This document shows positions 10,370 to 29,323 of a stretch of DNA of 64,000 bases, piece by piece. The position numbers and the translations under genes are program-made. The stretch's first letter is position 1. The number at the start of each line of letters is the position of its first letter. Source of the DNA: Pantoea stewartii subsp. stewartii (lineage in GTDB: Bacteria; Pseudomonadota; Gammaproteobacteria; Enterobacterales; Enterobacteriaceae); assembly GCF_008801695.1 (NCBI RefSeq), contig NZ_VZPF01000003.1:1-64000 (forward strand), read 5' to 3'. Under the pieces are notes generated by a model. It worked only from the letters and a program-made list of their open reading frames with translations. It had not been told where the DNA came from and made no database searches.

Positions 10370-10966
10370 TCACTGAATGGTCAGTACAACCCGGCCAATC
10401 AGTTTGATGTCATCAATCCCACAATCAAAGGCCACGCCAATCCCGCTGACGTGGACTTTCCTGACCGGAATACGCGTCAGCGTTCTGACGCTGGCTGTGC
10501 CTTCGATTTCGACCAACCAGACGCCGTCATGCATATCTTCGAAGTCAGTATCGATGATGTATTGCGTGGTTTCGGCCAACAGTAAAAAAGCGTTGCGCGG
10601 TTCCTGCTTCAGGGGCGCATATAAGGCTTTATCCAGCATCACATAACCCGCATCTTCGATTTTTCCGCTGATTAGTTTTTTTCTAATCAGTGTCGGTGTG
10701 TCAGGTTTGCTTTCTGAGAACTTGCTTCCTTTACCCGTAATCAACCATTGCAAGTCCGCCCCCGTTTCCATAACGCACTGCAAAACGATATCTGACGGAA
10801 AAACATCACGTTTATAGCGTGCAGACAGGCTGCTTGCGGCAATTCCAAGGTGATCTGCAAGCTGCATTTTCATGGTAAAGCCATAGGCATCGACAACGCG
10901 ATCCAGAGCTTCAGCGCTCGAGTTCGGAAATTTGAAATTAGTATAAACGCTCATTTTCATTGGCAC
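10370..10966 (-). CDS. CI-type repressor of the satellite-like element
   Basis: This should hold the element's lytic promoters off. The 198-residue protein aligns along its length with the CI repressor of the neighbouring 186-like prophage. The N-terminal helix-turn-helix includes FTMKMQLADHLGIAASSLSARY, and the C-terminal oligomerisation domain includes DGVWLVEIEGTASVRTLTRIP and GIDDIKLIGRVVLTIQ. DNA-contact residues differ from those of the prophage CI, so cross-immunity is unlikely. In P2 and 186 an integrase follows this gene; here the chemoreceptor terminator follows, so the usual int position is empty. Alternative starts exist at the clustered Met residues near the N-terminus. Confidence 0.88.
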   Translation of the reverse strand: MPMKMSVYTNFKFPNSSAEALDRVVDAYGFTMKMQLADHLGIAASSLSARYKRDVFPSDIVLQCVMETGADLQWLITGKGSKFSESKPDTPTLIRKKLISGKIEDAGYVMLDKALYAPLKQEPRNAFLLLAETTQYIIDTDFEDMHDGVWLVEIEGTASVRTLTRIPVRKVHVSGIGVAFDCGIDDIKLIGRVVLTIQ

Positions 10967-12261: not shown

Positions 12262-14558
12262 TGATTTTTGCTTACCCGTGGAATGCCCCCCGGCTGGCGA
12301 TTGCCAGCCCGTATCCCACTTATGACCAGCAGCAACACCGCGATCGCCTGATTGCGGCGTGGCTGCATGGGCAGAAAACCCTTAATGGCCCAGGCCAGGA
12401 TGGTGCAACTGGACGTCCGGCGTCGCATGGCGTTACTTGAAAAGCAACAGGGCACAGCCCGGGCTAATGCGTACTTAGCAAAAACCTTTATTGAGCGTAC
12501 ATTACCGCGTGTTGAGTCAGTCAACCAGCGCTACCAGTTGCATGCCATGCGTCCCGGCATCGTGGCGCAGCTATCCCGAACGCTGTCGTGCCCGCAAGGT
12601 GCAGCCAGAGCGGCCGGCACATTGTGGGAACTGATGAAGCGGTTTAACCGCCTGCCGGATATGTCCCGTGCTGATGTTGATTTACTCGCGGGCGATATTG
12701 CCAGCTTTATTCATGCAGAACTGGTGCAGTTGCATGCCAGCATCAGTGACAGGACGGATTACCGTTATGTCCATCACCTTTACACAACCGCGGCTATCAT
12801 CACCCGTGAGCTGGGACAAACGCCACCGCTCTGGGAAACAGTCAGTACTCGCTTCTTCTGTCCCGACGATGTTACCGCCGCCATCCTGCGTATGCAGGCA
12901 GAGAAATGGTGGAAAGGACAGTTGCGTCGTCTCAGCGCCTTCTGGCGAGAACATCTGCATATTGCCTTAGCCAACGTCAGCAAAAAGCGGTCACCTTATG
13001 CCAGTCCGATGGCGGTCGCGGAATGGCGGGAACAGCGTCGACGCACTCGTGACTTCCTGCAGAGTATGGATCTGGAAGATGAGGAGGGGAACCGAATCAG
13101 CCTGATCGAAAAATATGACGGCAGTGTGGCCAATCCAGCCATTCGTCGTGCGGAACTCATGACACGCATTCGTGGCTTTGAAACCCTTTGTCAAAATATG
13201 GGCTTCCGGGCGGAGTTTTATACTTTAACCGCCCCCTCTCGCTATCACGCCACCTTGCAAACGGGCCACCGCAATGCGAAATGGAACGGGGCCAGCCCGG
13301 CGGACACGCAGCGCTATCTTTGCACGCTCTGGCAGCGAGTCCGTGCCAAACTGCATCGAAATAACATCAGTATTTTTGGTCTGCGCGTTGCTGAGCCTCA
13401 TCACGATGGTACACCGCACTGGCACATGCTGATGTTTATGCGCCCTGAGGACGTCAGTCGGGTAAGTGAGATCCTGCGTGATTATGCCTGCCAGCAGGAC
13501 AGCGATGAGCTGAACAGCGCCCGCGCACGCAAAGCGCGTTTTCATGCGGAAGCCATTGATCCAGCAAAAGGCAGCGCGACAGGCTATATCGCTAAATACG
13601 TAGCAAAAAACATTGATGGCTATGCGCTCGAAGGCGAGCGGGATCATGAAAGCGGAAAGCCGCTGAAGGAAACGGCGATGGCCGTCTCGGCCTGGGCGGC
13701 CCGCTGGCGTATCCGCCAGTTTCAGTTTATTGGCGGTGCACCCGTCACGGTTTATCGCGAACTGCGCCGCCTGGCTGATCTGCAAAGCGCTCATGGTGCG
13801 GGCGAGGCGTTTGCTGCCGTACATGCTGCGGCTGATGCCGGTCAATGGGCTGCGTACACCGATGCCCAGGGCGGCCCCTTCGTTAAACGTGACGCACTTA
13901 CCGTGCGTGTCTGGTATCAGCCCGATGAAAATTGTAATGCCTTTGGCGAGGAAACGCAGTCGATTAAAGGCGTTTATGCCACGGCGACAGGGCCCGGTGC
14001 GCCCGTGTTGACCCGGCTGAAAACATGGAAAGTTGTGCCTAAACGCGCTGAAGAAGAGGGCGGCCAAAAACCGCAGCCGGCGTTGCGGCCCCTTGGACTC
14101 GTGGCAATAACTGTCCGCCTGATGAAAAAACAACCCACAGCCTGCCCGACTGGAGCACCCTGTCGCCACATCAGCGCAGGCAGTTAAGGCAGAAACTTCA
14201 CCGCATGCCGCCGCCAGATTTTGGCAGGCCAAAAGATGACCCGGAACGCCCGGGTAACAGGCCGTCTGAACTGCCCGTTTCAGAGACGCAGATGGCAATG
14301 CTGCGCTCCGCTATCAGGAAAATGTGTGAACTTAACGCAGTGATCTACAGCGACAGGCTGGCCGTGCTGCTGATTCGCGGTGAAGGCATTCGCCTGGGCA
14401 CGTACCGGCAAATGAAGATACGAAACGGCAATGAACTGGTGATTGTGCCAGCTGAAAGGTGCTGCCCATGGTGCGGAGTTGTTGTTGATGCGTGCAATCC
14501 AGTTCAGGGGCGCGGATGTTACCGCTGCACCGCGGCGGAAGATGATGAGTGGCTTTGA
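12258..14558 (+). pseudogene. gpA-type replication initiator, broken by two frameshifts
   Basis: P2 gpA nicks the phage origin and starts rolling-circle replication. The N-terminus (FAYPWNAPRLAI, as in P2 gpA) is in one frame from 12258. The main body is in the +1 frame from about 12352 to 14187. The C-terminus ([11 protein letters not shown] onward) returns to the first frame and ends at 14558. The body keeps the metal site EPHHDGTPHWHM and both catalytic tyrosines in GYIAKYVAKNIDGYALEG. The first shift lies between 12352 and 12440; the second is probably at the A5 run at 14065-14069. An internal start at ATG 12385 would give about 600 residues with the catalytic core, so partial function is possible. 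The shifts could be real, programmed, or assembly errors. Confidence 0.8.
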
Positions 14559-14595: not shown

Positions 14596-15576
14596 ATGGG
14601 GATTATCAAGCAGGAAGACGGTCGCTATCTTGTCGATCTTCGCCCAAAAGGCATAAGCGGCAGGCGAATAAGGCGTATTTTTCAGCGCAAATCTGAGGCC
14701 GTCGCTTTTCAGCGTCACGTTCAGGCGCACGCAGAAAGCCTGGAATGGGCAGGGGGCCCGTCAGACCGCCGCCTGCTGTCTGGCCTGCTGGATGCATGGT
14801 GGCTCCTGCACGGTCAGACTATGGAGAACGGCGCGACTGAACGTCGCCACCTGCAAAAAACGGTGCGGCATCTGGGCAACCTGCCGGTGAACCGGTTAAA
14901 CAGAAAAATGCTCGCCGCGCATCGCAGTGATCGGCTTGCTGCCGGGATAAGTGCTGCAACCATCAACCGTGATTTATATCGCCTGTCGGGGGTGTTCAGT
15001 ACACTGATTCGCCTGGGTGAGTTGCGGTGCGGGAATCCCTGTAAAGGCCTCACCCCCTTGCAGGAGCGGCCGCCTGCGATGACTTATCTTTCCAGGCAGG
15101 AAATAGCAGCACTTCTTCAAACGATGAACGGTGACGATCGCCGGGTGGCTCTGCTGTGTCTCAGCACAGGTGCGCGCTGGAGTGAGGCGAGCACACTTCA
15201 TGCCGGGCAGGTTATTAACGGCCGGGTGACGTTTCTTAAAACCAAAAACGGGAAGAAGAGAACGGTGCCGGTATCGCCAGCCGTTGAGCGGGAGATCAAA
15301 ACCTGCGAAAGCGGCCCGCTATTTAGCGTGGACTATGAGCGTTTTTGCAGGAAGCTCAGGGAAGTGAAGCCGGATCTCCCGCGCGGTCAGGCAACGCATG
15401 TGCTGCGGCACACGTTCGCCAGCTGGTTCATGATGAATGGCGGAAATATCCTGGCGCTACAGCGCATCATGGGGCATGCCTCTGTCCGGCAGACGATGGC
15501 CTACGCTCACCTCGCGCCGGACTTTTTACAGGAAGCCATAACACTGAACCCAGTTGCACAGGAGGTGGGACCGTGA
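14596..15576 (+). CDS. Tyrosine recombinase (P2-type integrase) in an unusual position
   Basis: A 326-residue site-specific recombinase. The N-terminal arm-binding part begins MGIIKQEDGRYLVDLRPKG. The catalytic domain has the first arginine in STGARWSEASTL, the box HVLRHTFASWFMMNGG, GHASVRQT and the nucleophile in MAYAHLAPDF, so all active-site positions are present. ATG 14596 follows AAAGGAGA. In P2-like phages the integrase lies next to the repressor at attP; here it lies after the replication gene, next to a cos-like site. Its TGA overlaps the GTG of a second, incomplete integrase. Confidence 0.9.
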   Translation: MGIIKQEDGRYLVDLRPKGISGRRIRRIFQRKSEAVAFQRHVQAHAESLEWAGGPSDRRLLSGLLDAWWLLHGQTMENGATERRHLQKTVRHLGNLPVNRLNRKMLAAHRSDRLAAGISAATINRDLYRLSGVFSTLIRLGELRCGNPCKGLTPLQERPPAMTYLSRQEIAALLQTMNGDDRRVALLCLSTGARWSEASTLHAGQVINGRVTFLKTKNGKKRTVPVSPAVEREIKTCESGPLFSVDYERFCRKLREVKPDLPRGQATHVLRHTFASWFMMNGGNILALQRIMGHASVRQTMAYAHLAPDFLQEAITLNPVAQEVGP

Positions 15577-15875
15577 GCATTGCCTGGCTGGAAGATGGTC
15601 GCTATCGGGTTGATGTGCGACCGCGCGGCCGCAACGGTAAGCGGTTCTGCAAAATCTTTGACCGCAAGGCTGACGCATATGTTTCGCAGCGCGGCATGAT
15701 GGCGCGTCACTTTTTCCGGTGCACGTCAGTGCACAAAATCGCAAGTAAAATTTATCTGCTGAGTTGCCCGCCGCGCCAGAGCTGGCGCGGTATCGCTACA
15801 TTTGAAAGCTGCACAATTTCATGCATAAACCGCGTGCGGGTGTGGTGGGGGACACGCGCCCGTTACGGGGGCTGA
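15573..15875 (+). pseudogene. Truncated second integrase (N-terminal domain only)
   Basis: The GTG at 15573 overlaps the stop of the complete integrase. The first 45 or so residues (MSIAWLEDGRYRVDVRPRG and KRFCKIFDRKADAYVSQR) match the arm-binding N-terminus of the preceding integrase. After about 15710 the similarity ends; the frame continues through unrelated sequence and over the cos-like site. It is best read as the remnant of an integrase whose catalytic part was deleted or replaced. Confidence 0.7.
15839..15857 (+). other. Cos-like site of the satellite-like element
   Basis: GGTGTGGTGGGGGACACG lines up with the helper prophage's cos GGCGTGGCGGGGATACG, with two C-to-T changes and one extra G. 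Similarity extends upstream (CATAAACCGCG against CACAAAGCGGG) and downstream (ACGGGG followed by GAATGG or AAATGG). Its place between replication gene and late operon is where P2-type cos lies. If real, helper terminase could cut and package this element. Confidence 0.5.
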
Positions 15876-15879
15876 ATGG

Positions 15880-16197: not shown

Positions 16198-16371
16198 TTA
16201 TGGCTCACTACGCATCAGGGCTTCCCGTGCAGCCCGCCTGAGCAGAACTTTGGCGCAGGCTGCCCACGACTCCCCCGACTGCTGACTGAGAAGGGTAATG
16301 ATCTGGTCAGTTTCATGCGGGATGCGTATCGATTTCATGATGGTTTTCCGGGTGCGGCGGGGTGCGGACAT
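16198..16371 (-). CDS. Small ribbon-helix-helix-like protein
   Basis: A 57-residue basic protein starting at ATG 16371 after CAGGAG. The core IMKSIRIPHETDQIITLLS followed by WAACAKVLLRRAAREALM has the beta-strand then helix pattern of ribbon-helix-helix or YlcI/YnfO-like small proteins. It is divergent from the Psu-like gene, and the symmetrical activator site at 16444-16461 lies between them about 80 bp from each start. It could therefore be expressed late and act as a DNA-binding regulator. The family assignment is tentative. Confidence 0.6.
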   Translation of the reverse strand: MSAPRRTRKTIMKSIRIPHETDQIITLLSQQSGESWAACAKVLLRRAAREALMRSEP

Positions 16372-16443
16372 AAGGACTCCTGAATGATGGTTGCCAGCGC
16401 ACATCATAGAGAACCCGCCCATAAGTGAATGTCACTTTTTCGT

Positions 16444-16536: not shown

Positions 16537-17196
16537 GTGGATAAAAGCACTCTGGCCGATAATGCACAGCCGCAAAATGAACCTCACCTTTCAGGCGTCC
16601 GGCAGCTTGATGAGACACGCCAGGCTTTTGAACAGGCCTGGCAGATTCTGACTGAGGCAGAAAAGACCCTGCATAACTTTGAAGCCTCACGGGACAGGGC
16701 TAAATCAAAGTCAGCAGAAGCCAGCCGCCAATGGGAGGCCGCAATGACGGCCGGTAAAGGTATAGTGACGGAAGAAGCAGAAGCGCTTGAAAACGTTATT
16801 GCCCAGGCTGAACGGCAGGTCGAACGCCTCGGACCAATGATTGAGGCGCAGGCGCTGGAAGTTCTGGATTACCGGGTGTCGGCTTCCCGCGCCGCCCACG
16901 CCCATCACCATACGCACCGGCAGCTTGTCGGACTCTATCAGCTGGCGGGCCTGCCCGAGCGTGAAGCGGTGGATATGCTTACCCGCACTTTTAGCGCATT
17001 CGCACGCGGCGATCATCAGGCGCTGGCGCTGGCAGCTGTTGAGCAGAACGCGGACGCCAGCCCGGCGCTGGCCGCTTTTCCCGGCAGGCTGCCATTTGAA
17101 GTCACGAAGGCGATCCGCCACGTTCCCTCTCCGATTCAGCAGTCCATGATGGAGAAAAACCCCCGAACTCAAACGCCGCCTTGCGCTGGGCCTTGA
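16537..17196 (+). CDS. Psu-like (polarity suppression) protein, C-terminus possibly frameshifted
   Basis: P4 Psu inhibits Rho termination and also decorates the P4 capsid. The helical core TRQAFEQAWQILTEAEKTLH through ENVIAQAERQVERLG, then AARHHTH-like HAHHHTHRQLVGLYQ, follows the pattern of Psu (LQQAFDTCQNNKAAWLQRKN and onward). The start is GTG 16537 after AAGGAG, about 75 bp past the activator site. The last 14 residues look unnatural: a shift at the A5C5 tract (17154-17163) gives EKTPELKRRLALGLEPMKHS, which runs into the next frame. The protein may therefore really be about 300 residues. Psu identity rests on pattern and context, not on an alignment score. Confidence 0.6.
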   Translation: MDKSTLADNAQPQNEPHLSGVRQLDETRQAFEQAWQILTEAEKTLHNFEASRDRAKSKSAEASRQWEAAMTAGKGIVTEEAEALENVIAQAERQVERLGPMIEAQALEVLDYRVSASRAAHAHHHTHRQLVGLYQLAGLPEREAVDMLTRTFSAFARGDHQALALAAVEQNADASPALAAFPGRLPFEVTKAIRHVPSPIQQSMMEKNPRTQTPPCAGP

Positions 17197-17200
17197 ACCC

Positions 17201-17461
17201 ATGAAACACAGCCATTCAGGAATGTCATTTCTGAGTAAAACAGTCACGATTAACTTAAAGGGGCAGTGCTTCACCCTGACCTGTGCTGAACTACAGCAGC
17301 ACGTACTGGCCTGCTGTGACGCCGGTCTGATGCATTTTGGCACGCCGGCGCACGCAGCCTCGTTTGTTGACCGGACGCAGGGTCACCGTGGCGGCCATTT
17401 TTTCTCAGGGCAGCGCGACGGCGGCGAAAACGAGCCGGACACCGTTTATGTTGACTACTGA
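17201..17461 (+). CDS. Small protein of unknown function, or C-terminus of the Psu-like gene
   Basis: An 86-residue frame beginning MKHSHSGMSFLSKTVTINLK, with a His- and Gly-rich middle and an acidic end. I do not recognise a family. It starts 5 bp after the Psu-like stop without a clear ribosome binding site of its own, and is open upstream across that stop. It may be the true C-terminal part of the Psu-like protein, separated by a one-base indel at the A5C5 tract. Its stop is 8 bp before the capsid gene start, so they form one operon. Confidence 0.5.
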   Translation: MKHSHSGMSFLSKTVTINLKGQCFTLTCAELQQHVLACCDAGLMHFGTPAHAASFVDRTQGHRGGHFFSGQRDGGENEPDTVYVDY

Positions 17462-17469: not shown

Positions 17470-18519
17470 ATGAAAAACCAGACACGGCACCGGTTTCAGA
17501 ATTGGGTGCTGCATCAGCAAAATGGCAGTGAAGAAGCGGACGCATGCCCCGCGCAGCATTTCAGCGTTGAGCCTTCAGCCAGCCAGCGTGCGGTAAGCCG
17601 CATGCAGGAGAGTTCGGCACTGCTTGGCCGGATTAATATTGTCGCCGTTGATGAGCAGCAGTCGGAAAAGCTGGGGCTGGGTGTGGGTTCACCCCTTGCG
17701 GCGACAGGAACGGCCAGCCAGGCGCGGCGCGAGCCGCGTCCGGTTGTCACCCTTGATTCTGATGATTACCGATGCGAGCAGGTCAATACCGATACTTTCA
17801 TCAGTTTCAGCCAGCTGGACAGCTGGGCCTGCCTTGATGGTTTTGAAGAGCGGATAGAAAGCCAGATTACGATCCGAAAAGCGCTGCATCGCATCATGAC
17901 TGGGTTCAATGGGGTTACACATGCCGCCAAATCCGACATTGATAAAAATCCGCTGCTTCAGGACGTCAACACGGGCTGGCTTCAGCATATGCGCAGTAAC
18001 GCCTCACAACGGATTATCAGCGGCGTCTCGGTGTCCCGGCGAGACGCGGATAACCGCATCGTAAGCCCTGGCGACTACGGTACGATAGATTCTCTGCTGA
18101 TGGAGGCGTACAGGTCATTGCTCGATCCCTGGTATGTGGACTCGGAAGAGCTTGTAGTGATCTGTGGCCGTGACATGCTCACCCGCAAATATTTTCCTCT
18201 GATTAATGGCCTCGGCACCGTTCCGGCACCTAACCGGGAGATACTGAGCTGGATGGTACTGGATAAAAACCAGACGCTGGGCGGGCTTCCTGCTTTCGGT
18301 GTGCCGTTCTTCCCGGCAGATGCAGCACTGATTACCACGTTTGAAAATCTGTCAATGTACTGGCAGCGGAACACGGATCGCCGCCTCGTTGCTGATGAAT
18401 CGCCGTATAACCGGGTGGCGATCTATGATTCGCGCAATGAAGCGTACGTGGTTGAAGACTACGGGTGTGCGTGTCTGGTCGAGGGCATTAAATGGGGGAA
18501 TGACGGAAAAGCGTCCTGA
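17470..18519 (+). CDS. P2 gpN-type major capsid protein encoded by the satellite-like element
   Basis: A full-length (349 residues; helper N is 353) capsid protein of the P2 gpN family. Shared blocks with the helper N include GLGVGS, NPLLQDVN-GWLQ, ELVVICGRDML-KYFPL, GGLPAFGVPFFPADAALIT and EAYVVEDYGCACLVE. The N-terminus keeps F31 followed by SVEPS, the same position at which P2 gpN is cut (F31, TVEPS). No scaffold, protease or portal gene accompanies it, so assembly would need helper gpO and gpQ. MQESSALLGRINIV resembles P2 N more than the local helper N. It may replace the P4 Sid function by building or forcing a smaller shell; that is inference. Confidence 0.88.
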   Translation: MKNQTRHRFQNWVLHQQNGSEEADACPAQHFSVEPSASQRAVSRMQESSALLGRINIVAVDEQQSEKLGLGVGSPLAATGTASQARREPRPVVTLDSDDYRCEQVNTDTFISFSQLDSWACLDGFEERIESQITIRKALHRIMTGFNGVTHAAKSDIDKNPLLQDVNTGWLQHMRSNASQRIISGVSVSRRDADNRIVSPGDYGTIDSLLMEAYRSLLDPWYVDSEELVVICGRDMLTRKYFPLINGLGTVPAPNREILSWMVLDKNQTLGGLPAFGVPFFPADAALITTFENLSMYWQRNTDRRLVADESPYNRVAIYDSRNEAYVVEDYGCACLVEGIKWGNDGKAS

Positions 18520-18635: not shown

Positions 18636-18851
18636 ATGACTTACCGTTGCCCAAAGTGCGGTTGTTCAGCGCGTGATCGTTACTCGGATATTGGTGAAAA
18701 CTGCGTCCGCACCGCGTTTCATCAGTGCAACAACCTTTACTGCGGGATTTCGTTTCGTACCCGGACAGAAATTGATGCCATTATCAGCCAGGAAAACGAC
18801 GCTCTATCCACGAAGCGGAAAGCGCATCGTCCGCCTGCATGCCTGCCATGA
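18636..18851 (+). CDS. Ogr/Delta-family late transcription activator
   Basis: Such zinc-binding proteins bind TGT-N12-ACA sites and contact the RNA polymerase alpha subunit. The 71-residue product has the four-cysteine site CPKC and CNNLYC with the family spacing, and the GISFRTRTEID motif matching Ogr's ATFVTHETV. It corresponds to P4 Delta in position, downstream of the late genes. It is clearly diverged from the helper's Ogr (49907-50125), which fits the different half-site of this element's late promoter. GGAGG lies about 10 bp before the ATG. Confidence 0.88.
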   Translation: MTYRCPKCGCSARDRYSDIGENCVRTAFHQCNNLYCGISFRTRTEIDAIISQENDALSTKRKAHRPPACLP

Positions 18852-20538: not shown

Positions 20539-20585
20539 TTGGTGGCCCCTGCTGGGTTTGAACCAGCGACCAAGCGATTATGAGT
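20539..20585. other. attL, 47-bp core of the 186-like prophage
   Basis: The 47 bp match 50641-50687 exactly and correspond to the 3' part of tRNA-Ile2 including CCA and the anticodon arm up to TGAGT. Beyond it the 5' part of the tRNA is missing, so this copy is not a tRNA gene. The integrase gene begins about 75 bp inside. Confidence 0.95.
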
Positions 20586-20659
20586 TCATACGGTAACAAC
20601 CGAAAATCAATAGTTTGCATTATTTATCATTGACATAGGTTGTCATTGTTTGCCACCAA

Positions 20660-21694
20660 TTACCCATTATGCGCCATTTCTACCGCCACTTTATCGCCAC
20701 TCACCGCCAATGGGTTTAGCTTAACAGCATCTTCTAAATGGTCAGGGGCAAAGTGGGCATATCGCATCGTCATTTTAATATCGGTATGGCCGAGAACGCG
20801 TTGCAGGACCAGAATATTACCACCATTCATCATAAAGTGACTGGCGAATGTGTGGCGCAGAACGTGGGTCAGTTGCCCTGCCGGTAATTCGATACCTGTT
20901 CTCTCAAGAGCAGACCTAAACGCGCCATAACAATCACTAAATAGCCGACCTGTTCGGTCATCTGGTAGCGTGTTAAATAGCTCCTTGCTAATAGGAACGG
21001 TGCGGTTTTTTTTACCCTTCGTGTTGATATAAGTGATTTTGAAATTTGTGAGCTGGCTTTTTTTCAATTGCTCGGCTTCAGACCAACGTGCGCCAGTCGC
21101 AAGGCAAATTTTGACCACATTGACCAAATCCTGATTTTCATGGCGATGGCATTCAGCAAGTAGCACGGCGATCTGTTCCTGATTTAGCCAGGCCATTTCC
21201 ATTTCTTCCGTGCGGAAAGGGCGCATATTTTTTAGCGGGTTTTCTCCTTTCCATTCGCCAAGCCGATTAAGCTCATTGAACACTGCGCGAAAGTAGGCCA
21301 GCTCAAGATTAAGCGTCCGAGGCGATACCTCTTTAACCCTATTTGAACGTGCATATTCACCCTTTAGCCTCTTTTCCCGGTAGCGGGAAAACATCTGCGC
21401 ATCAAAATCGCGTGCGAGCGGTTCGCCCATACACTCAAAAGCATGATGCATCGCTAACTGGCGTTTGAGACCGTCTTTCAGGGTAATACCGTGAGCGCTA
21501 TACCATGAGTCAATTAGGTCTTTTAACGTGCGTCTGTCTTCCTTTTCTTCCTGCCACGGGTTTTGAACAGTGTACTGTTCGAACGCCAGCGCCTCGCCCT
21601 TGGTGGCGAATTTCTTTCTGATGCGTTTGCCTTTTGCCCCGTTCGGATAAAGCTCACAAATCCAGCCGCCAGCAGGGTTTTTACGGATCGCCAT
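20660..21694 (-). CDS. int: Prophage integrase (tyrosine recombinase)
   Basis: A 344-residue integrase that recombines attP with the 3' end of tRNA-Ile2. The N-terminal arm-binding domain begins MAIRKNPAGGWICELYPNGA. The catalytic domain shows ATGARWSEAEQL, HVLRHTFASHFMMNGG, GHTDIKMTMRYAHFAPDHL, with R, H, R and the final Tyr all in place. Its ATG overlaps the stop of cI, so repressor and integrase are in one leftward operon as in 186. The end lies about 75 bp from attL. Confidence 0.96.
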   Translation of the reverse strand: MAIRKNPAGGWICELYPNGAKGKRIRKKFATKGEALAFEQYTVQNPWQEEKEDRRTLKDLIDSWYSAHGITLKDGLKRQLAMHHAFECMGEPLARDFDAQMFSRYREKRLKGEYARSNRVKEVSPRTLNLELAYFRAVFNELNRLGEWKGENPLKNMRPFRTEEMEMAWLNQEQIAVLLAECHRHENQDLVNVVKICLATGARWSEAEQLKKSQLTNFKITYINTKGKKNRTVPISKELFNTLPDDRTGRLFSDCYGAFRSALERTGIELPAGQLTHVLRHTFASHFMMNGGNILVLQRVLGHTDIKMTMRYAHFAPDHLEDAVKLNPLAVSGDKVAVEMAHNG

Positions 21695-22272
21695 CAGTTA
21701 ACCTCGCTGTAGATACCCACCACACGACCAATCAGTTTTATCTCATCAAAGCCGCATTCAAAGGGCACTTTCCCACCTGCAACGTGGAGTTTCCTGCCGG
21801 GGAGAATGGTTAACTCGCGAATGCTGTTTGCTCCTTCAATATCTACCAACCATAGGCCATCGGAATGCGGGGAATCTTGATCAACGAAATGCAACTTTCC
21901 TTCTGCTCGAACAGCAATCCCTTTTGATAACTGCTTACTCAAAATATTAGGGTCAATGCTCAATGTGGAATTTTTTTCTAAAACACCATCATCGAGAATA
22001 TAAAGGTCCATTTTTTTAGAATCAGTGATTGAAGGGCTGTTCTCGAATCGTTCCCCCTCTCCGGTCAGAATCCATCTGAGACTTGCACCAGTTTCAAGCG
22101 AACAGAACGCCGCTAGATCGTAAGAGATAGTTCCGCGTGTGTATCGGTTCTGCAGGGAACTTGGTGACATTTCAAAGTGATTTGCGAGCTGCAATTTTTG
22201 GCTGAAGCCATAAACAGAGATGATCCTGTCAAGGATAGTTAGAGGCTCAAAAGTGTTTTTGTTTATGCTCAT
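21694..22272 (-). CDS. cI: 186-type CI repressor
   Basis: The lysogeny repressor. The 192-residue product has an N-terminal helix-turn-helix (YGFSQKLQLANHFEMSPSSL) and the C-terminal domain DGLWLVDIEGANSIRELTILP and PGRKLHVAGGKVPFECGFDE, close to 186 CI including its ending GIYSEVN. In 186 this protein forms large oligomers and is released by an SOS-induced antirepressor rather than by RecA cleavage. The SOS box further along this prophage fits the same logic. Confidence 0.93.
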   Translation of the reverse strand: MSINKNTFEPLTILDRIISVYGFSQKLQLANHFEMSPSSLQNRYTRGTISYDLAAFCSLETGASLRWILTGEGERFENSPSITDSKKMDLYILDDGVLEKNSTLSIDPNILSKQLSKGIAVRAEGKLHFVDQDSPHSDGLWLVDIEGANSIRELTILPGRKLHVAGGKVPFECGFDEIKLIGRVVGIYSEVN

Positions 22273-22401
22273 TAGTGTTTTCCATGTTGACCAATGCTCA
22301 AAAGTTAATTACATTGCTCATCAGTGAGGTGTGTATGTTGGCAAACATTGGGGAATGAGAGGCCAACATTGTCTAAAACAGTAAATAGGGAATCATGCAT
22401 C
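22273..22401. promoter_or_regulatory. Lysis-lysogeny switch region
   Basis: The 130 bp between divergent cI and apl should contain the facing lytic and lysogenic promoters and CI/Apl sites. A 7-bp inverted repeat, TGTTGGC (22336-22342) with GCCAACA (22362-22368), is visible, as are repeated ATGCTCA/TTGCTCA motifs. Confidence 0.6.
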
Positions 22402-22665
22402 ATGGCTTCTGAAATCGCAATCATCAAAGTACCTGCACCCATCGTTACCCTGCAGCAGTTTGCTGAGCTGGAAGGTGTCTCCGAGCGTACTGCTTATCGC
22501 TGGACAACTGGTGATAATCCTTGCGTGCCAATTGAACCGCGCACAATACGAAAGGGTTGTAAAAAAGCCGGTGGTCCCATCCGTATTTACTACTTTCGCT
22601 GGAAAGAAGAGCAAATGCGTAAAGCCCTGGGTCATTCACGTTTTCAACTTGTTATTGGTTCGTAA
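22402..22665 (+). CDS. apl: Apl/Cox-type excision and switch protein
   Basis: In 186, Apl directs excision and also represses promoters at the switch. The 87-residue product MASEIAIIKVPAPIVTLQQF, with the helix-turn-helix LEGVSERTAYRWTTGDNPCV, matches Apl closely. ATG 22402 has a weak GGGA upstream. It is divergent from cI and is the first lytic gene. The satellite-like element lacks a counterpart. Confidence 0.88.
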   Translation: MASEIAIIKVPAPIVTLQQFAELEGVSERTAYRWTTGDNPCVPIEPRTIRKGCKKAGGPIRIYYFRWKEEQMRKALGHSRFQLVIGS

Positions 22666-22695
22666 TTCACTTTATGGCAATGGTAAGGATGAATC

Positions 22696-23205
22696 ATGTT
22701 TGATTATCGTATTTCCAAACATCCGCACTTTGACGAAGCCTGTAGGGCTTTTGCGCTGCGTCACAACATGGCGAAGCTGGCAGAACGTGCGGGAATGAAC
22801 GTCCAGACGCTGCGTAACAAACTGAACCCGGAGCAACCGCATCAGCTCACGCCGTCGGAAATCTGGCTACTTACCGATCTTACTGAGGACTCCACGCTGG
22901 TTGACGGCTTTCTGGCTCAGATTCACTGCCTGCCATGCGTACCGATGAACGAAGTGGCAAAAGAGAAGCTGCCGCACTACGTCATGAGCGCGACTGCTGA
23001 AATCGGACGTGTTGCTGCCGGTGCCGTATCGGGTGATGTGAAAACCACCGCAGGCCGCCGGGATGTTATCAGCAGCATTAACTCCGTTATGCGTCTTATG
23101 TCACTGGCTGCTATCTCCATGCAGGCGCGTTTGCAGGCCAACCCTGCGATGGCAAATGCGGTGGATACCGTGACGGGCCTCGGCGCTTCGTTCGGTCTGA
23201 TCTGA
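22696..23205 (+). CDS. cII: 186-type CII establishment regulator
   Basis: In 186, CII activates the establishment promoter for cI. The 169-residue product starts MFDYRISKHPHFDEACRAFA and has the helix-turn-helix MAKLAERAGMNVQTLRNKLN, then a conserved C-terminus with AEIGRVAAGAVSGDVKT. It is essentially the 186 CII sequence pattern. Note that it is unrelated to lambda CII in detail. It follows apl by 30 bp. Confidence 0.92.
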   Translation: MFDYRISKHPHFDEACRAFALRHNMAKLAERAGMNVQTLRNKLNPEQPHQLTPSEIWLLTDLTEDSTLVDGFLAQIHCLPCVPMNEVAKEKLPHYVMSATAEIGRVAAGAVSGDVKTTAGRRDVISSINSVMRLMSLAAISMQARLQANPAMANAVDTVTGLGASFGLI

Positions 23206-23212
23206 GGTGGTT

Positions 23213-23413
23213 ATGCTGACTAAAGAACCCTCTTTCGCGTCACTTCTCGTAAAGCAAAGCCCGGCAATGCACTACGGTCACGGCTGGATCATGGGGAAGG
23301 ATGGCAAGCGCTGGCACCCGTGCCACTCTCAGGATGCACTGCTGGTCGACCTGTCCGCTACCAAACAGGGGAAATCATGGCTATTGAAGGTGCTGCGGCG
23401 ACTGTTCCATTAA
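23213..23413 (+). CDS. DUF2724-family early protein, Fil-like
   Basis: A 66-residue protein with SLLVKQSPAMHYGHGWIMGK and GKRWHPCHSQDALLVDL, conserved after cII in 186-like phages. In 186 the gene at this place is fil, whose product blocks cell division. I recognise the family and position but cannot confirm activity. ATG 23213 is preferred over GTG 23207 because TGAGGTGG is then correctly placed. It overlaps the next gene. Confidence 0.75.
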   Translation: MLTKEPSFASLLVKQSPAMHYGHGWIMGKDGKRWHPCHSQDALLVDLSATKQGKSWLLKVLRRLFH

Positions 23414-23718
23414 GCCCCGGTAAAAGACTGGAAGCATTGAATCATATTGCGGAATTGAGGGCTAAAGTGTTTGGTCTGAATATTGAGCCGGAGCTTGAAA
23501 GGTTTATTAATGATATGCGCGATCCGCGCGACGTAAATAATAAACAGAATGAGCGGGCACTGGCAGCCATTTTTTATATGGCAAAAATTCCGGCAGAACG
23601 TCACGGCGTCAATATTAGTGATCTGACTACTGACGAAAAGCGGGAACTGGTGAAAGCAATGAATCATTTTCGTGCAGTGGTGAGCTTATTTCCCAAACGG
23701 CTAACCATGCCGAATTAA
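23377..23718 (+). CDS. DUF5347-family early phage protein
   Basis: A 113-residue soluble protein starting MAIEGAAATVPLSPGKRLEA, with ELERFINDMRDPRDVNNKQN and EKRELVKAMNHFRAVVSLFP. The family is common in P2/186-like early operons but has no established function. In 186 the corresponding place is near dhr, which depresses host replication; that link is positional only. ATG 23377 follows CAGGGGA and overlaps the Fil-like gene. Confidence 0.72.
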   Translation: MAIEGAAATVPLSPGKRLEALNHIAELRAKVFGLNIEPELERFINDMRDPRDVNNKQNERALAAIFYMAKIPAERHGVNISDLTTDEKRELVKAMNHFRAVVSLFPKRLTMPN

Positions 23719-23733
23719 TCCACAACAGAAATT

Positions 23734-23778
23734 AATGGCGTAAACCCGCCGGGCTTCTTATTGCCCAAATTCAGGAGA
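23734..23778 (+). promoter_or_regulatory. Conserved leader element of the prophage replication operon
   Basis: GTAAACCCGCCGGGC, a spacer, TTGCCCAAA and AGGAGA form a short stem and ribosome binding site before the DUF2732 gene. A near copy precedes the homologous gene in the satellite-like element at 11768-11813. Confidence 0.6.
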
Positions 23779-23785
23779 AACAACT

Positions 23786-24019
23786 ATGCGAAATATCGAA
23801 ACCCGTACCACTAAAACCGGACCAGATGATGCTGGACTCAACCTGTTGCTGACTGAGGCACGCAAAGAAGAACGCCGGGGACGCGCAGATGTGATGGCTG
23901 CACGTCTGGATTCTTTAGCTGCTCGTATCGTGTCACGTCAGCTTAACCACACGGAAGCGGCTGAGCTGCTGCGTCAGGAAGCTGTGAAGATTCAGAACGA
24001 AGCGCAGGAGATCCACTGA
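23786..24019 (+). CDS. DUF2732-family phage protein
   Basis: A 77-residue protein of unknown function found before the replication genes of P2-like phages. GLNLLLTEARKEERRGRADV and QLNHTEAAELLRQEAVKIQN define the family. ATG 23786 follows AGGAGA and the stop overlaps the next start, indicating coupling. The satellite-like element has a homologue. Confidence 0.82.
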   Translation: MRNIETRTTKTGPDDAGLNLLLTEARKEERRGRADVMAARLDSLAARIVSRQLNHTEAAELLRQEAVKIQNEAQEIH

Positions 24020-24246
24020 TGGCTGATTCAATGGACCTCGTACAGCAGCGCGGTGAAGAAGAACGCCAGCGCCACATCCACACCGCCCGCAATAAAGCGC
24101 CGGGCGTTTCCCGTGTTCTCTGCATTGATTGCGATGCGCCGATCCCGCCAGCTAGCCGCCGCGCCATTCCGGGCGTGCAGTGCTGCGTCACTTGTCAGGA
24201 AATTTCAGAGCTTAAAGGCAAACACTATAACGGAGGTGCGGTGTGA
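24019..24246 (+). CDS. TraR/DksA-type zinc-finger protein
   Basis: A 75-residue protein with the four-cysteine site CIDCDAPIPPASRR and CCVTCQEISE of the short TraR/DksA family, which can act on RNA polymerase directly. It overlaps the preceding and following genes. Phage early operons of this group nearly always carry one. Confidence 0.88.
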   Translation: MADSMDLVQQRGEEERQRHIHTARNKAPGVSRVLCIDCDAPIPPASRRAIPGVQCCVTCQEISELKGKHYNGGAV

Positions 24247-25091
24247 TTAATGACTTAGAAACTCTTAGCCAGCCGGTTAAGCATCCAGCTATCCGTTATC
24301 ACGGCGGTAAATTCCGCCTTGCGTCATGGATTATCGAGCGTATGCCGGGGCATGTTTGTTACGTCGAACCTTTCGGGGGCGCAGCGGGCGTTTTGCTGCA
24401 AAAGCCGCGTAGCTACTCAGAAGTCTATAACGACTTGGACGGCGAAGTAGTGAACCTTTTCCGTGTGCTGCGTGACCCGGCAATGAATCAGCGACTGCAA
24501 GATGCTTGCTCGCTCACACCGTATTCACGCGATGAGTTTTGCGCGGCCCAAGAACAAACCGACGATCCGATTGAACGTGCGCGTCGTATGGTTGTTCGTG
24601 CCTGCATGGGGTTCGGTTCGGCGGCAGGCATTGGCGGTAACTCAGGCTTCCGCAGCGACAGCAAACGCAAATACGCCACCGCCGCGCATTTGTGGGAGCG
24701 TTACCCAGGGAATCTGGCAGCGGTGTGTCAGCGCCTGCAGGGCGTCATCATTGAGAACAAAGACGCACTGGCCATAATGCGCGCCCACGATGCTGATACC
24801 ACTTTGCACTACATCGATCCGCCATATGTGCCGGAAACCCGCGTACAGGGCAACCGCTACTACAACCACGAAATGACCATTGAAGGACATGAACAGCTGT
24901 TGTCCGTCGCAAGGACGCTCGGCGGAATGGTGATGATTAGCGGCTACGAAAGCGAGCTATATAACGACATGCTGTGCGGATGGAAGAAAGAGACGAAGGG
25001 TTCCCGTATTAGTGCCGGACGCGGCACGAAGGTTCGCACCGAATGCCTGTGGATAAATGATCTGTGTATGAAAAATAAGGGGGTTGCATGA
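24243..25091 (+). CDS. Dam-type adenine methyltransferase, first of a tandem pair
   Basis: A 282-residue adenine-N6 DNA methyltransferase of the D12 class. The AdoMet-binding segment is YVEPFGGAAGVLLQKPRS, preceded by HGGKFRLASWIIERMPG, and the catalytic motif is YIDPPYVPE. The likely role is modification of phage DNA to evade host restriction or to alter gene control. It overlaps the zinc-finger gene and the second methyltransferase by a few bases. Target specificity cannot be read from sequence; GATC is only a family-based guess. Confidence 0.88.
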   Translation: MINDLETLSQPVKHPAIRYHGGKFRLASWIIERMPGHVCYVEPFGGAAGVLLQKPRSYSEVYNDLDGEVVNLFRVLRDPAMNQRLQDACSLTPYSRDEFCAAQEQTDDPIERARRMVVRACMGFGSAAGIGGNSGFRSDSKRKYATAAHLWERYPGNLAAVCQRLQGVIIENKDALAIMRAHDADTTLHYIDPPYVPETRVQGNRYYNHEMTIEGHEQLLSVARTLGGMVMISGYESELYNDMLCGWKKETKGSRISAGRGTKVRTECLWINDLCMKNKGVA

Positions 25092-25948
25092 GCACCATCC
25101 TTAAATGGGCGGGAAATAAAACCGCCATCATGCCTGAACTTATTAAGCACCTTCCTGCTGGTCCGCGACTGGTTGAACCTTTCGCGGGTTCGTGCGCTGT
25201 GATGATGGCGACAGACTATCCTCATTATCTTGTCGCGGATATTAATCCAGACCTGATAAATCTTTATAAGCATATTGCATTTGACTGCGATAAATTCATT
25301 TCAAATGCAAAAGGATTCTTTGCCAGCACAAATAGCGCAGAGTCTTATTACAACATCCGTCAGGATTTTAATCATTCTGCTGAAACTACCGATTTCTGGA
25401 AAGCTGTATTTTTCCTTTATCTTAATCGCCATGGTTATCGTGGATTGTGCCGCTATAACCTGAGCGGTCATTTTAATGTCCCTTACGGTAATTATAAAAA
25501 TCCGTATTTTCCTGAAAGTGAAATACGCGCTTTTGCAGAAAAGGCTCAACGCGCAACGTTTATCTGCGCCAGCTATGATGAAACACTGGCGCTGCTGCAG
25601 GCTGGTGATGTTGTTTATTGTGATCCGCCATACGATGGCACATTTAGCGGTTATCACACTGCCGGTTTTACAGAAGACGATCAGTATCATCTGGCGTCTA
25701 TTCTTGAGCGCCGGTCATCAGAAGGTCATCCGGTTATCGTGTCCAACAGCGACACGTCCCTGACCCGTTCGCTTTATCGTAATTTTACCCGCCATCGCAT
25801 CACTGCAAAGCGCAGCATGGGGGGGGCTGCCGGTGAGAGTAAATCTGCAGCAGAAATCATCGCCACAAAATCAGCAGGCTGGTTTGGTGTCGATTTGGCG
25901 TCCGGTCCAGATATCTCGGTGGAAACTGAGGTGCGGGCGTGGCAGTGA
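25088..25948 (+). CDS. Dam-type adenine methyltransferase, second of a tandem pair
   Basis: A 286-residue enzyme with [40 protein letters not shown] and the catalytic [12 protein letters not shown], the layout of Dam itself. It is visibly more AT-rich in its middle (25240-25560) than its neighbours, which suggests separate acquisition. It overlaps the first methyltransferase by 4 bp and gpA by 10 bp. The two enzymes are only distantly alike, so they probably differ in target or use. Confidence 0.88.
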
Positions 25949-28347
25949 GTAAATTCACATTACATAATGCACCAACCACCGGCGGCTCGAATGAGGCCGC
26001 CGTGGCCTTTTCATGGAGTAACCCCAAAAAAGCGGTTAACCCATATCTGGACCCGGCGGAAGTTGCGCCGGAGTCTGCGCTTTCAAACCTGATCGCTCTT
26101 TACGCTGCGGATAACGAGCAGGAGCAGCTGCGCCGTGAGGCGCTGAGCGATGAGGTCTGGGAACGCTATTTCTTCAATGAATCCCGTGATCCTGTCCAGC
26201 GCGAAATGGAGCAGGACCGGTTGATTAGTCGTGCCAAAATGGCGCGCGAGCAGCAGTGTTTTAATCCCGATCTGGTCATTCTGGCTGACGTTAACGCCAT
26301 GCCGTCCCATATCAGCAAGCCTCTGCTGGAGCGGATTAAATATTTCCATAGTCTGGGCAGAACAAAAGCCTATTCCCGCTACCTGCGCGAAACCATCAGG
26401 CCCTGTCTTGAGCGGCTGGAGCGCGTGCGTGACAGTCAGGTGTCTGCGTCTTTCCGGTTCATGGCGAGCCACGACGGGCTGGAAGGGCTGCTGGTACTAC
26501 CTGAAATGAATCAGGATCAGGTCAAGCGCCTTTCAACGCTGGTAGCGGCACATATGAGCATGTGTCTTGATACAGCTTGCGGTGATCTGTTTGTCAGCGA
26601 CGATGTTAAACCAGAAGAAATCCGCCAGGCATGGGAAAGGGTTGCCGCAGAAGTCATGCGCCTTGAGGTCATCCCGCCTGCCTTTGAGCAGCTGCGCCGC
26701 AAGAAGCGCCGCCGCAAGCCGGTGCCTTATGAACTGATCCCAGCGTCGCTGGCGCGTATGCTGTGCGCGGACTGGTGGTATCGCAAACTGTGGCAGATGC
26801 GCTGCGAGTGGCGGGAGGAGCAACTGCGCGCCGTCTGCCTTGTCAACAAAAAAGCGTCCCCGTATGTCAGCTATGAAGCCGTGATCCACAAACGCGAGCA
26901 GCGCCGCAAATCGCTGGAGTTCTTCCGCTCGCATGAGCTGGTCAACGAAGACGGCGACACACTGGACATGGAAGACGTGGTGAACGCCAGCAACAGCAAC
27001 CCGGCACACCGCCGTAATGAAATGATGGCCTGTGTTAAGGGACTGGAGCTGATAGCGGAAATGCGCGGCGACTGCGCGGTGTTTTATACCATCACCTGTC
27101 CGTCACGATTCCACGCAACCCTCAACAACGGCAGACCTAATCCGAAATGGACCAGCGCCACTGTCCGGCAGAGCAGTGATTATCTGGTTGATACCTTCGC
27201 CGCTTTCCGCAAGGCAATGCACAAAGCCGGGCTGCGCTGGTATGGCGTCCGCGTTGCAGAGCCGCACCATGACGGCACCGTGCACTGGCATCTGTTGTGC
27301 TTCATGCGCAAAAAAGACCGCCGTTCCATCACCGCACTGCTGCGTAAGTTTGCCATCCGTGAAGACCGCGAGGAGCTGGGCACCAATACCGGGCCGCGCT
27401 TCAAGTCCGAGCTTATCAACCCGCGCAAGGGTACGCCGACCAGCTATATCGCCAAATACATCAGCAAGAACATCGACGGGCGCGGGCTGGCTAAAGAAAT
27501 CAGCAAAGAAACAGGCAGATCACTGCGTGACAGCGCCGAGCATGTCAGCGCCTGGGCGTCACTGCACCGTGTCCAACAGTTCCGTTTCTTTGGTATTCCG
27601 GGGCGTCAGGCATACCGCGAGCTGCGCTTGCTGGCTGGTCAGGCGGCCAGAGTGCAGGGCGAACGCAAAGCGGGTGCGCCGGTACTGGATAACCCGCGTC
27701 TGGATGCGGTACTGGCGGCGGCTGATGCGGGCTGCTTTGCCACCTACATCATGAAGCAGGGCGGTGTGCTGGTTCCCCGCAAACATCACCTTGTCCGCAC
27801 GGCATATGAGCTTAACGACGAGCCGAGCGCCTACGGCGATCACGGTATCCGTATCTATGGCATCTGGTCCCCGATTGTGGAGGGCAAGATTTGCACGCAC
27901 GCGGTGAAGTGGAAAAAGGTTCGCAAGGCCGTTGACGTTCAGGAGGCGGCAGCCGACCAGGGCGCTTGCGCCCCTTGGACTCGTGGCAATAACTGTCCCC
28001 CTGTTGAAAATCTGAACAAATCAGGGGGTGATTTACCCGATATAAAAACCATGGATGAGAAGGAGCTGCAGGAATATCTCCACAGCATGGGCCAGAAGGA
28101 ACGGCGGGAGCTGACAGCCAGGTTAAGGCTGGTAAAACCGAAGCGGAAAAAAGCATATAAACAGACTATTTCGGATCAGCAGCGCCTGCAGCTTGAGGCA
28201 GAACTGAGTTCCAGAGGGTTCGATGGTAGCGAGTCAGAGATTGACCTGCTTCTGCGCGGTGGCAGTATTCCGTCAGGTGCCGGGCTGCGTATTTTTTACC
28301 GCAACCACCGTCTGCAGGAAGATGACAAATGGCGTCAGTGGTACTGA
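25939..28347 (+). CDS. A: P2 gpA-type replication endonuclease
   Basis: Nicks the origin within its own gene and starts rolling-circle replication. The 802-residue protein has the metal-binding [15 protein letters not shown] and the two catalytic tyrosines in [16 protein letters not shown], four residues apart. The C-terminal part includes [11 protein letters not shown], the marker also seen in the frameshifted satellite copy. Starts at GTG 25939 or GTG 25945 are both possible. It ends the early operon and is followed by an SOS-controlled gene pair. Confidence 0.94.
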
Positions 28348-28441
28348 TGCCGCAGCTTTAACAATTCTTGCTCTTATTGATCCGCATCAGAGCGATCTAA
28401 TTGACAGATAAAAAACGTTTTACATTCATCAAATCCTACTA

Positions 28442-28476
28442 TACTGTGTTTATAACCAGTGGATATACATACAGTT
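28442..28476 (+). promoter_or_regulatory. LexA box with a second, overlapping degenerate box
   Basis: TACTGTGTTTATAACCAGTG fits the LexA consensus (CTG-N10-CAG at 28444-28459). A second near-match ends in ACAG at 28474 and lacks only the C of its first CTG. They lie 30-65 bp before the small gene at 28509. In 186 the equivalent promoter is LexA-controlled and drives the Tum antirepressor. Confidence 0.78.
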
Positions 28477-28508
28477 ATTGTGTGTCCGTAGTAGTGATAG
28501 GAGGGAAA

Positions 28509-28697
28509 ATGCAGGATTATCTTTTGGAGTCGTTGAAACTCCAGCGCATTGATTTTTTTATCAAGCTTGTAGCGGCTAGTGAGTGTAGCGACGAAGAAAA
28601 GCGGCTGGCTATCCAGTGGGTTTCTGAGCTGACCGATGAGCTGATGGAGAAAATCAGAAATCATGAGTACAGCCGAGCCATGGGCGTTTCAAGTTAG
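28509..28697 (+). CDS. Small SOS-controlled protein, possible antirepressor part
   Basis: A 62-residue acidic helical protein, MQDYLLESLKLQRIDFFIKL and onward, starting at ATG 28509 after GGAGGG. It is the first gene downstream of the LexA boxes, so it should be made on DNA damage. In 186 the gene at this place encodes Tum, which inactivates CI; here the corresponding sequence appears as two small genes. I do not recognise the family with certainty. Confidence 0.6.
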   Translation: MQDYLLESLKLQRIDFFIKLVAASECSDEEKRLAIQWVSELTDELMEKIRNHEYSRAMGVSS

Positions 28698-28709
28698 AGG
28701 GGAATCTAT

Positions 28710-28943
28710 ATGCGCATTGAAATAATGATCGATAAAGAGCAGAAGATTAGCCAGGCTACACTGGACGCCCTTGAATCCGAGCTTTACCGTAATTTGCGCC
28801 CTCTGTATCCCAAAACAGCAATTCGTATCCGCAAGGGCAGCGCCAACGGCGTTGAGCTGAGCGGGTTAAAACTGGATGAAGATAAAAAGCGAGTGATGGA
28901 AATAATGCAGCAGGTCTGGGAGGACGACAGCTGGTTACATTAG
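28710..28943 (+). CDS. DinI-like protein
   Basis: A 77-residue protein starting MRIEIMIDKEQKISQATLDA, with YPKTAIRIRKGSANGVELSG and KRVMEIMQQVWEDDSWL, matching the DinI family. Chromosomal DinI binds RecA filaments and tunes the SOS response. It follows GAGGGG and is 12 bp after the preceding small gene, so both belong to the LexA-controlled unit. Together they may provide the induction switch; the C-terminal part of 186 Tum is DinI-like, which supports this. Confidence 0.85.
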   Translation: MRIEIMIDKEQKISQATLDALESELYRNLRPLYPKTAIRIRKGSANGVELSGLKLDEDKKRVMEIMQQVWEDDSWLH

Positions 28944-29077
28944 CAAACGTTGCGGGCGATAAAACTGGTTTTTACCGTCCGCAAGGTTGAACAACGAGCC
29001 ACGCGAGGCGTTAGTGCTGTTGTGCATGACTATGCCGCATGAAATCGCATGATCGTTTGAGGATCGTTTTTGCTGAG

Positions 29078-29100
29078 GCCCGCCAGAACTGGCGGGCTTT
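29078..29100 (+). terminator. Terminator of the early/SOS operon
   Basis: GCCCGCCAG and CTGGCGGGC with a 2-base loop, followed by TTTTGCTT. It closes the rightward transcript just before cos. Confidence 0.9.
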
Positions 29101-29146
29101 TGCTTATGTCATGCAGGTGCATGAAAACCACTACACAAAGCGGGCA

Positions 29147-29165
29147 GGCGTGGCGGGGATACGAG
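29147..29165 (+). other. cos site of the prophage
   Basis: GGCGTGGCGGGGATACGAG matches the 19-nt cohesive ends of 186 (GGCGTGGCGGGGAAAGCAT) and P2 (GGCGAGGCGGGGAAAGCAC) over the first 13 bases. It lies between gene A and gene Q, exactly as in P2-group genomes. Confidence 0.8.
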
Positions 29166-29289: not shown

Positions 29290-29323
29290 GTGAGAGGCGG
29301 TCTTGTTGTCGTGGTGCGGTGGG

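Follow-up and report, generated by a model that had tools for sequence, protein, structure and literature searches.

A satellite-like element of Pantoea stewartii that encodes a P2-type major capsid protein with a predicted helper-type maturation site

A satellite-like element next to a P2-like prophage

The window, i.e., the whole stretch of 64,000 nucleotides from Pantoea stewartii subsp. stewartii analyzed here, contains a P2-like prophage and, to its left and outside its bounds, a separate small element at about 10.3 to 19 kb (Table 1). The reading frames of the element are complete, and one of them encodes a paralogue of the P2 major capsid protein gpN whose Phage_cap_P2 match is full-length (residues 16 to 340 of 349). 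The first-pass annotation had taken the element to be satellite-like and the gene to be a capsid gene of P2 type, and this assignment holds up. The same gpN and Sid-like proteins, 100% identical to those of the window, are encoded by an IMG/VR viral contig of 10,059 bases (L001), which presumably represents the same locus.

Table 1. Features of the satellite-like element and of the adjoining helper prophage (window positions; a slash between residues marks the cleaved bond)
Feature	Position	Strand	Evidence
CI-type repressor	10370..10966	-	Pfam Phage_CI_C 1.5e-31, Phage_CI_repr 3.7e-24
P2-type rolling-circle replication protein A (GPA)	12352..14187	+	Pfam Phage_GPA E 7.9e-120
Probable shared replication origin	14079..14128	+	51-column alignment, 92% identical to helper 27961-28010
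Tyrosine integrase, P2-type	14596..15576	+	Pfam Int_N 2e-27, Phage_integrase 5.6e-19 for 14605-15576; start 14596 by eye
cos-like site matching the helper's cos	15824..15879	+	score 38 over 10.2-kb element; 200 shuffles: 95% 33, maximum 36
Small protein (ribbon-helix-helix a guess by eye); counterpart ahead of the Sid-like gene in other gpN satellites	16198..16422	-	PHROG 949 E 2.2e-4
Divergent Sid-like protein (Sid/Psu superfamily, 219 aa)	16537..17196	+	PHROG 6165 E 1.9e-6; own HMMs: Sid 23.6 bits, Psu 3.1 bits
86-aa ORF between sid-like and N genes	17201..17461	+	no Pfam or PHROG match at E 0.01
Satellite gpN paralogue (P2-family major capsid protein, 349 aa)	17470..18519	+	Pfam Phage_cap_P2 E 3.7e-104; PHROG 70 major head protein E 1.4e-110; PDB 7jw1 gpN E 1.5e-81
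F31-S32 codons, predicted gpO maturation cleavage site	17560..17565	+	bond between 17562 and 17563
V33-E34-P35-S36, start of mature N-arm	17566..17577	+	conserved in helper-type gpN
Ogr/Delta-type late-gene activator	18636..18851	+	Pfam Ogr_Delta E 2e-9
Helper P2-like prophage	20539..50687	+	47-bp repeat in tRNA-Met at both bounds
Helper cos	29118..29172	+	score 54 to P2 core vs shuffled 95% of 26
Helper gpQ portal	29324..30379	-	own F27/S28 site
Helper gpO protease/scaffold	33010..33843	+	PHROG 73 E 9.6e-111; PF05929 match; D, H and S at P2 triad positions
Helper gpN	33860..34921	+	F31-TVEPS

The element was searched with 22 queries (21 helper proteins, namely gpQ, gpP, gpO, gpN, gpM, gpL and 15 later ORFs, plus P2 gpO). 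At an E value of 0.01, gpN alone found a match, both here and in the three related gpN elements described below. Pfam and PHROG scans of 10 element ORFs detected neither a protease family nor an alpha-type primase/helicase, Phage_GPA being present instead of the latter. Processing of the satellite gpN would therefore need a helper's gpO. The earlier statement that the element has no protease of its own is borne out by these searches, and a gpO with the D, H and S triad is encoded next door.

The protein encoded upstream of the capsid gene was assigned with separate profiles for Sid (25 Sid-like rows plus P4 Sid) and Psu (P4 Psu and 9 Psu-like rows, of which 4 are shorter than 100 aa). The Sid profile gave 23.6 bits for the window protein and 15.6 to 16.7 bits for its relatives, with an alignment over the N-terminal part only, while the Psu profile matched no ORF in any of the four gpN elements at E 0.1. 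The label “Psu-like,” taken from PHROG 6165, was dropped because the P4 record gives Sid and Psu the same product name, while the separate profiles favor Sid. Further Sid/Psu-superfamily genes of genome G000, to which the window belongs, on contigs C60 (26010-27697) and C110 (5431-6150), probably belong to two more conventional P4-like satellites.

Two DNA features link the element to the helper. The cos-like site reaches significance only when the core of the helper's cos is the query; P2 cos alone also scores highest there, but not significantly (32 vs a shuffled 95% of 34), and a long comparison of the satellite and helper cos regions was likewise not significant (27 vs shuffled values up to 30.5). 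In the three related gpN elements, P2 cos located no cos site. The 51-column stretch lies within the A genes of both the element (14079-14128) and the helper (27961-28010) in different reading phases, so that it appears to be conserved as DNA; we take it to be a probable nick site/origin. Together, these features favor a satellite that would be packaged and replicated alongside the window's helper.

Att repeats at the ends of the satellite were sought and not found, nor was an empty site in a comparison of three loci. Since att was not found, the element could be partly decayed. By eye, a second integrase start at 15573-15700 shares a 4-base overlap (GTGA) with the stop of the first integrase and is truncated after about 40 codons. 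A PemK/MazF-like toxin gene (PF02452; 18871-19505, minus strand), with a likely antitoxin gene ahead of it by eye, lies at the right side of the satellite. Just outside the helper's att, a small ORF on the minus strand (20063-20428) matches endolysin family PHROG 38472 (E 2.1e-10), and a 199-aa ORF outside both elements (57393-57992, minus strand) matches PHROG 36754, of unknown function (E 1.1e-104).

The predicted maturation site of the satellite capsid protein

In P2, the first 31 residues of gpN are removed by gpO according to a portion of PMC7552001, which agrees with the cleavage position given by the first-pass annotation. Codon by codon, the satellite gene encodes F31 at 17560-17562 and S32, V33, E34, P35 and S36 at 17563-17577, and the helper gene encodes F31, T32, V33, E34, P35 and S36. 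The reported occurrence of F31-SVEPS and F31-TVEPS at the same residue is thereby confirmed. The two proteins are 42% identical over 350 aligned positions, and because the BLAST alignment opens two compensating 2-residue gaps ahead of the site, “same residue” holds by count. A second P2-like gpN/gpO pair of genome G000 (contig C8; gpN L074:10317-11363) has the gpN site F/AVDPT, so that the satellite VEPS is closer to the adjacent helper than to the second one. A gpN N terminus near-identical to that of L074 also occurs in the Izhakiella genome (L088).

The residue preceding the cleaved bond (P1) was examined in helper-type proteins. The gpN set started from 87 translations, of which 8 were excluded as satellite copies, as duplicates of these or, in one case, for an internal stop; 7 more were excluded as divergent, their loci lacking a PF05929 match. 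Merging identical sequences then left 67. P1 is Phe in 65 of them (31 F/T, 26 F/S, 4 F/A and 4 F/N); the two exceptions, V/E and Y/T, indicate that a helper-type gpN can have another P1. Counted per locus with near-copies included, Phe occupies P1 of the gpO self-site in all 72 mapped loci (43 F/S, 23 F/C, 6 F/A) and of the gpQ site in 11 of 11 (9 F/T, 2 F/S). The residue that follows P1 Phe in the mapped sites of the three proteins is T, S, C, A or N. With P1 Phe near-universal in helper-type sites, the F/S of the satellite fits the helper's protease.

When residues 1 to 160 of the satellite gpN were scored with a matrix derived from the N, O and Q sites of helpers, F31/S32 came out far ahead of any other position (17.9 bits; next best -0.7; shuffled 95% 7.7), a score that descent alone would also produce, since the matrix takes in N sites. 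A matrix of gpO and gpQ sites only, meant as a gpN-independent test, was set aside as uninformative because 31 of 32 genuine helper N sites also scored negative with it.

How far the site has been retained was judged on columns conserved at >=75% in 41 representative helper-type gpN proteins. The satellite protein keeps 4 of 12 such columns at P2 residues 1 to 30, 5 of 5 at 31 to 36 and 7 of 12 at 37 to 60. The low first count bears out the earlier remark that the 30 residues ahead of the site are diverged. Protein-wide, 107 of 178 conserved columns are kept vs 50 of 167 variable ones, as expected for a constrained protein. With columns taken as independent, all five at the site would be kept with a probability of 0.020 if the two flanks set the rate (11/24) and of 0.071 if the remainder of the protein does (102/173). 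Fully kept runs of five successive conserved columns number 16 of 178 over the whole protein and 1 of 30 among those starting at or before residue 60; six-residue windows with at least five consensus matches number 48 of 341, one of which starts at residue 31. Thus, the site stands out against its neighborhood and not against the whole protein, and its retention is moderately beyond chance.

Which residues bear on the protease is a separate matter. V33 to S36 are part of the mature N-arm, and two related satellites without F31 still have P-S; these positions are therefore weak evidence for protease recognition, on which mainly F31 and S32 bear. The claim of the first-pass annotation that retention implies selection goes further than these data, given a chance probability of 0.02 to 0.07, the place of V33-S36 in the N-arm and the persistence of P-S in two satellites lacking F31. 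The window lineage, moreover, is known from one sequence only, as L001 appears to be the same locus.

A comparison with four helper-type gpN proteins that have gpO beside them (L003, L006, L021 and L030) separates the region ahead of the site from the rest of the protein. Against a consensus that excludes a protein's own clade, the window gpN keeps 4 of 13 prodomain columns, the other satellites 1 or 2 and the four helper-type proteins 7 to 9. In the core, divergence is similar, with 90 of 152 columns kept by the window gpN and 83 to 102 by the helper-type four. The prodomain of the satellite proteins is thus eroded, while the window copy retains the cut site.

Related elements that pair Sid-like and gpN genes

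Three more elements pair Sid-like and gpN genes without gpO, in Izhakiella australiensis (L068/L090), an Enterobacteriaceae MAG (L069/L092) and Klebsiella spallanzanii (L091). They came from a Sid-like protein search, a by-eye comparison of PF05125 and PF05929 matches in 295 family genomes and a pattern scan of an 84,980-species collection. All three carry an alpha-type primase (PHROG 1139) in place of A, and the order small gene, Sid-like gene, N is common to the window element and these three genomes (the small gene matches PHROG 949 in L091 at 0.002 and was recognized by eye only in L068 and L069).

Such pairs are rare in the collections searched, with 3 among the 295 family genomes including the window's own. 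Genome G372 has a Sid-like match (E 8.1e-5) and no gpN match among its PF05125 matches. No gpN was found beside ordinary Sid/Psu loci in 1.9 to 3.7 kb around each of 30 loci (30 of 44 matches; a 31st is a duplicate). An alpha-type N profile found no more members in 394 order genomes at E 1e-100, a cutoff that could not register the window copy, and a Sid-like profile returned only G000 from 375 order genomes. Of two scans of genome contigs, one found nothing and the other the two known loci and the Klebsiella one. Among viral contigs, the proteins of the window element matched only L001, the K. spallanzanii Sid-like protein matched none, and the alpha-type N proteins matched eight and nine loci at 38 to 42% identity, the eight of which look like ordinary gpN. 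In phage, plasmid and E. coli collections, the matches listed are all either gpN proteins below 60% identity or, at the DNA level, short stretches of annotated P2-family capsid genes.

These searches also brought up seven divergent gpN proteins of about 330 aa (L070, L071, L072 and L075 to L078) with F/S, F/A or F/F near residue 30 and no PF05929 match nearby, which we read as another phage type, and gpN fragments without a nearby gpO match in G356 and G222.

The gpO-type site, i.e., F at residue 31 followed by a small residue, is present in the window copy and absent at the aligned position in the three relatives. There, the F31 column holds S, followed by N in Izhakiella, S in the MAG and D in K. 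spallanzanii. The region is rearranged in K. spallanzanii, where F/S lies 1 residue and again 10 residues upstream of the aligned position, and the site matrix gives one candidate, AMNF/SATPG (9.3 vs a shuffled 95% of 8.0). It gives none in Izhakiella (6.5 vs 8.4) or the MAG (4.5 vs 8.2); these two are close kin, so that their loss of the site is perhaps one event. The relatives' gpN genes are under purifying selection (dN/dS of 0.24 for Izhakiella/MAG and 0.10 for Izhakiella/Klebsiella, the latter with saturated dS). The alignment of site against flanks proposed in the first-pass annotation gives a divided answer: the window copy keeps 5 of 5 conserved columns at 31 to 36, and none of the relatives has Phe there. 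The same annotation had counted relatives with a lost or shifted site as evidence against its view, and all three relatives found are of this kind, which tells against it for the gene type and not for the window copy.

An N-terminal extension of about 80 to 90 residues occurs in the Izhakiella (L068:2819-4117, minus strand) and Klebsiella (L091:8758-10020) proteins and not in the MAG copy. In a model of the Izhakiella protein (mean pLDDT 57.9), the extension forms a helical hairpin (helices 3-18 and 23-41; pLDDT 82 to 88 by blocks of ten) on a low-confidence linker, the hairpin and the HK97 core being usable with care and the linker not. The core aligns with 7oz4 (Z 13.1, rmsd 8.1, 216 aligned residues) and 7jw1 (Z 12.5, rmsd 8.1, 215 aligned), and a sequence search of the PDB with the hairpin gave no match below E 1.2. 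The AlphaFold model of the window gpN (mean pLDDT 37.5) was left unused. Because the N-terminal region has been rebuilt in the other three gpN satellites, gpO cleavage would here be a property of the window copy and not of the type.

In the gpN phylogeny, the four satellite proteins group with L003, L006, L021 and L030 (group of eight, 100/100), and the three alpha-type satellite proteins form one clade (100/100). The window gpN, on a branch of 1.3 changes per column, is nearest to L003, whose own site is F/AIAPS, in an unsupported pair (71/2). The best tree has two origins of satellite gpN, with long branches, and a single clade of all four is not rejected (AU p 0.297). A shortened sir loop and a longer A-domain loop were considered as satellite inventions and rejected as such, since the gpO-flanked L003, L006, L021 and L030 share these length differences.

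Possible roles of the satellite gpN and comparison with known systems

We favor a reading, to which we give a probability of about 0.5, in which the satellite makes a capsid subunit that assembles with helper parts and, in the window element, is trimmed by the helper's gpO. The element would then be a satellite of the P2/P4 world encoding its own P2-type major capsid protein beside a divergent Sid-like size-determination protein. Upon induction, Ogr/Delta would switch on expression of the sid-like/N operon, and the satellite gpN would enter helper assembly together with the gpO scaffold-protease, the gpQ portal, the terminase and the tail. Mixed assembly would give a capsid of a size that suits the satellite, and helper gpO would cut the satellite gpN between F31 and S32, as it does helper gpN. 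From expression through co-assembly and size effect to cleavage itself, these steps are predictions drawn from the sequence.

A possible but less probable explanation of the site is descent without selection on it, in which the satellite gpN is, or recently was, functional and has kept F31-SVEPS by chance and through the needs of the N-arm. The chance probability of 0.02 to 0.07, the P-S retained in two relatives that lack the Phe and the fact that relatives manage without the site yet are under purifying selection all agree with it; survival of F31 and a small residue 32 on a branch as long as that of the window gpN, where most of the preceding conserved columns are lost, speaks against it. 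We consider it improbable that the satellite gpN is no building block of satellite particles and instead poisons helper capsid assembly or diverts gpO, to the indirect gain of the satellite. Such interference would suit the long branch of the window gpN and the presence of a Sid-like partner, owing to which size redirection need not rest on N, but the relatives show purifying selection over N, and the sir-loop and A-domain differences recur in helper-type L003, L006, L021 and L030. Least probable, and in our judgment very unlikely, is a decayed P2-type prophage with added fragments, the N gene being a leftover. The truncated second integrase, the missing att repeats and the P2 type of the CI and A genes are in line with such a remnant. 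It is at odds with the complete reading frames, the cos-like site, the failure of the other queried helper proteins to match any of the four elements and the recurrence of the small-gene, Sid-like, N order in three further genomes whose replication gene is alpha-type.

If the preferred reading of a satellite-made capsid subunit is extended to the relatives, the four elements might belong to a rare type of P2/P4-world satellite that brings both a major capsid protein and a divergent Sid of its own. Capsid size would then be independent of the helper's gpN, and “sir” escape mutations of the helper would be of no help to it. In the alpha-type gpN proteins, the gpO site is gone from its usual place. 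The N-terminal extension of two of the three, which in the one modeled is a helical hairpin followed by a long flexible linker, may be a built-in scaffold, and the window element would be the form still matured by helper gpO. This wider picture is rather doubtful, and we offer it tentatively.

A 2024 review states, in a portion of its text, that P4-like satellites have very few helper homologues and none among the helper-subverting proteins (PMC11389934). Satellites with Sid-like and helper-type capsid genes side by side look like exceptions to that statement. The terms “major capsid” and “gpN” do not occur in the main text, as available, of a survey of P4-like satellites (PMC8628076), and a literature search, to which most subscription journals are external, listed among its matches no report of a helper-type capsid gene in P4-like satellites. 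Satellite-encoded capsid homologues are already known; the Sid-like/gpN pairing around P2 is not known from the literature searched. With one satellite copy that has a helper-type site and three that have none at the usual place, dependence on the helper's protease is directly testable.

cf-PICIs carry a whole capsid and packaging module. As in the part of PMC11389934 that describes them (PDB 9gyi), an HK97-fold capsid protein is encoded by the satellite itself, but only N was found in the window element by the 22 helper/P2 queries at E 0.01, a set to which unrelated capsid modules do not belong. P4 (NC_001609; PMC7552001, in part) resembles the window element in helper type, Ogr/Delta activator, Sid-superfamily protein and a cos shared with the helper. 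P4 has no annotated capsid gene, whereas the window element has a P2-type A in place of alpha and no recognizable Psu. With the gpN of the P2 family itself (PDB 7jw1 and 7oz4), the satellite protein shares full-length homology and the cleavage site; it differs in its long branch, its eroded prodomain and an element in which gpO, gpQ, gpP, gpM and gpL were not detected.

The closest analogue of the window gpN is Ccm of SaPIbov5. Parts of PMC8569155 describe Ccm as a satellite homologue of the helper capsid protein that occupies pentamers, redirects capsid size and is cleaved in SaPIbov5 particles; since the Ccm and CP cleavage sites share little, its authors leave the protease of Ccm open. The window gpN is likewise a satellite-encoded homologue of a helper's major capsid protein. 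It differs in having a site of the helper's type and in being encoded beside a Sid-like protein, while the helper of SaPIbov5 is the HK97-like phi12, which has no separate scaffold. Satellites that combine Sid-like and gpN genes would show that the capsid-homologue strategy represented by Ccm in Staphylococcus arose around P2, too.
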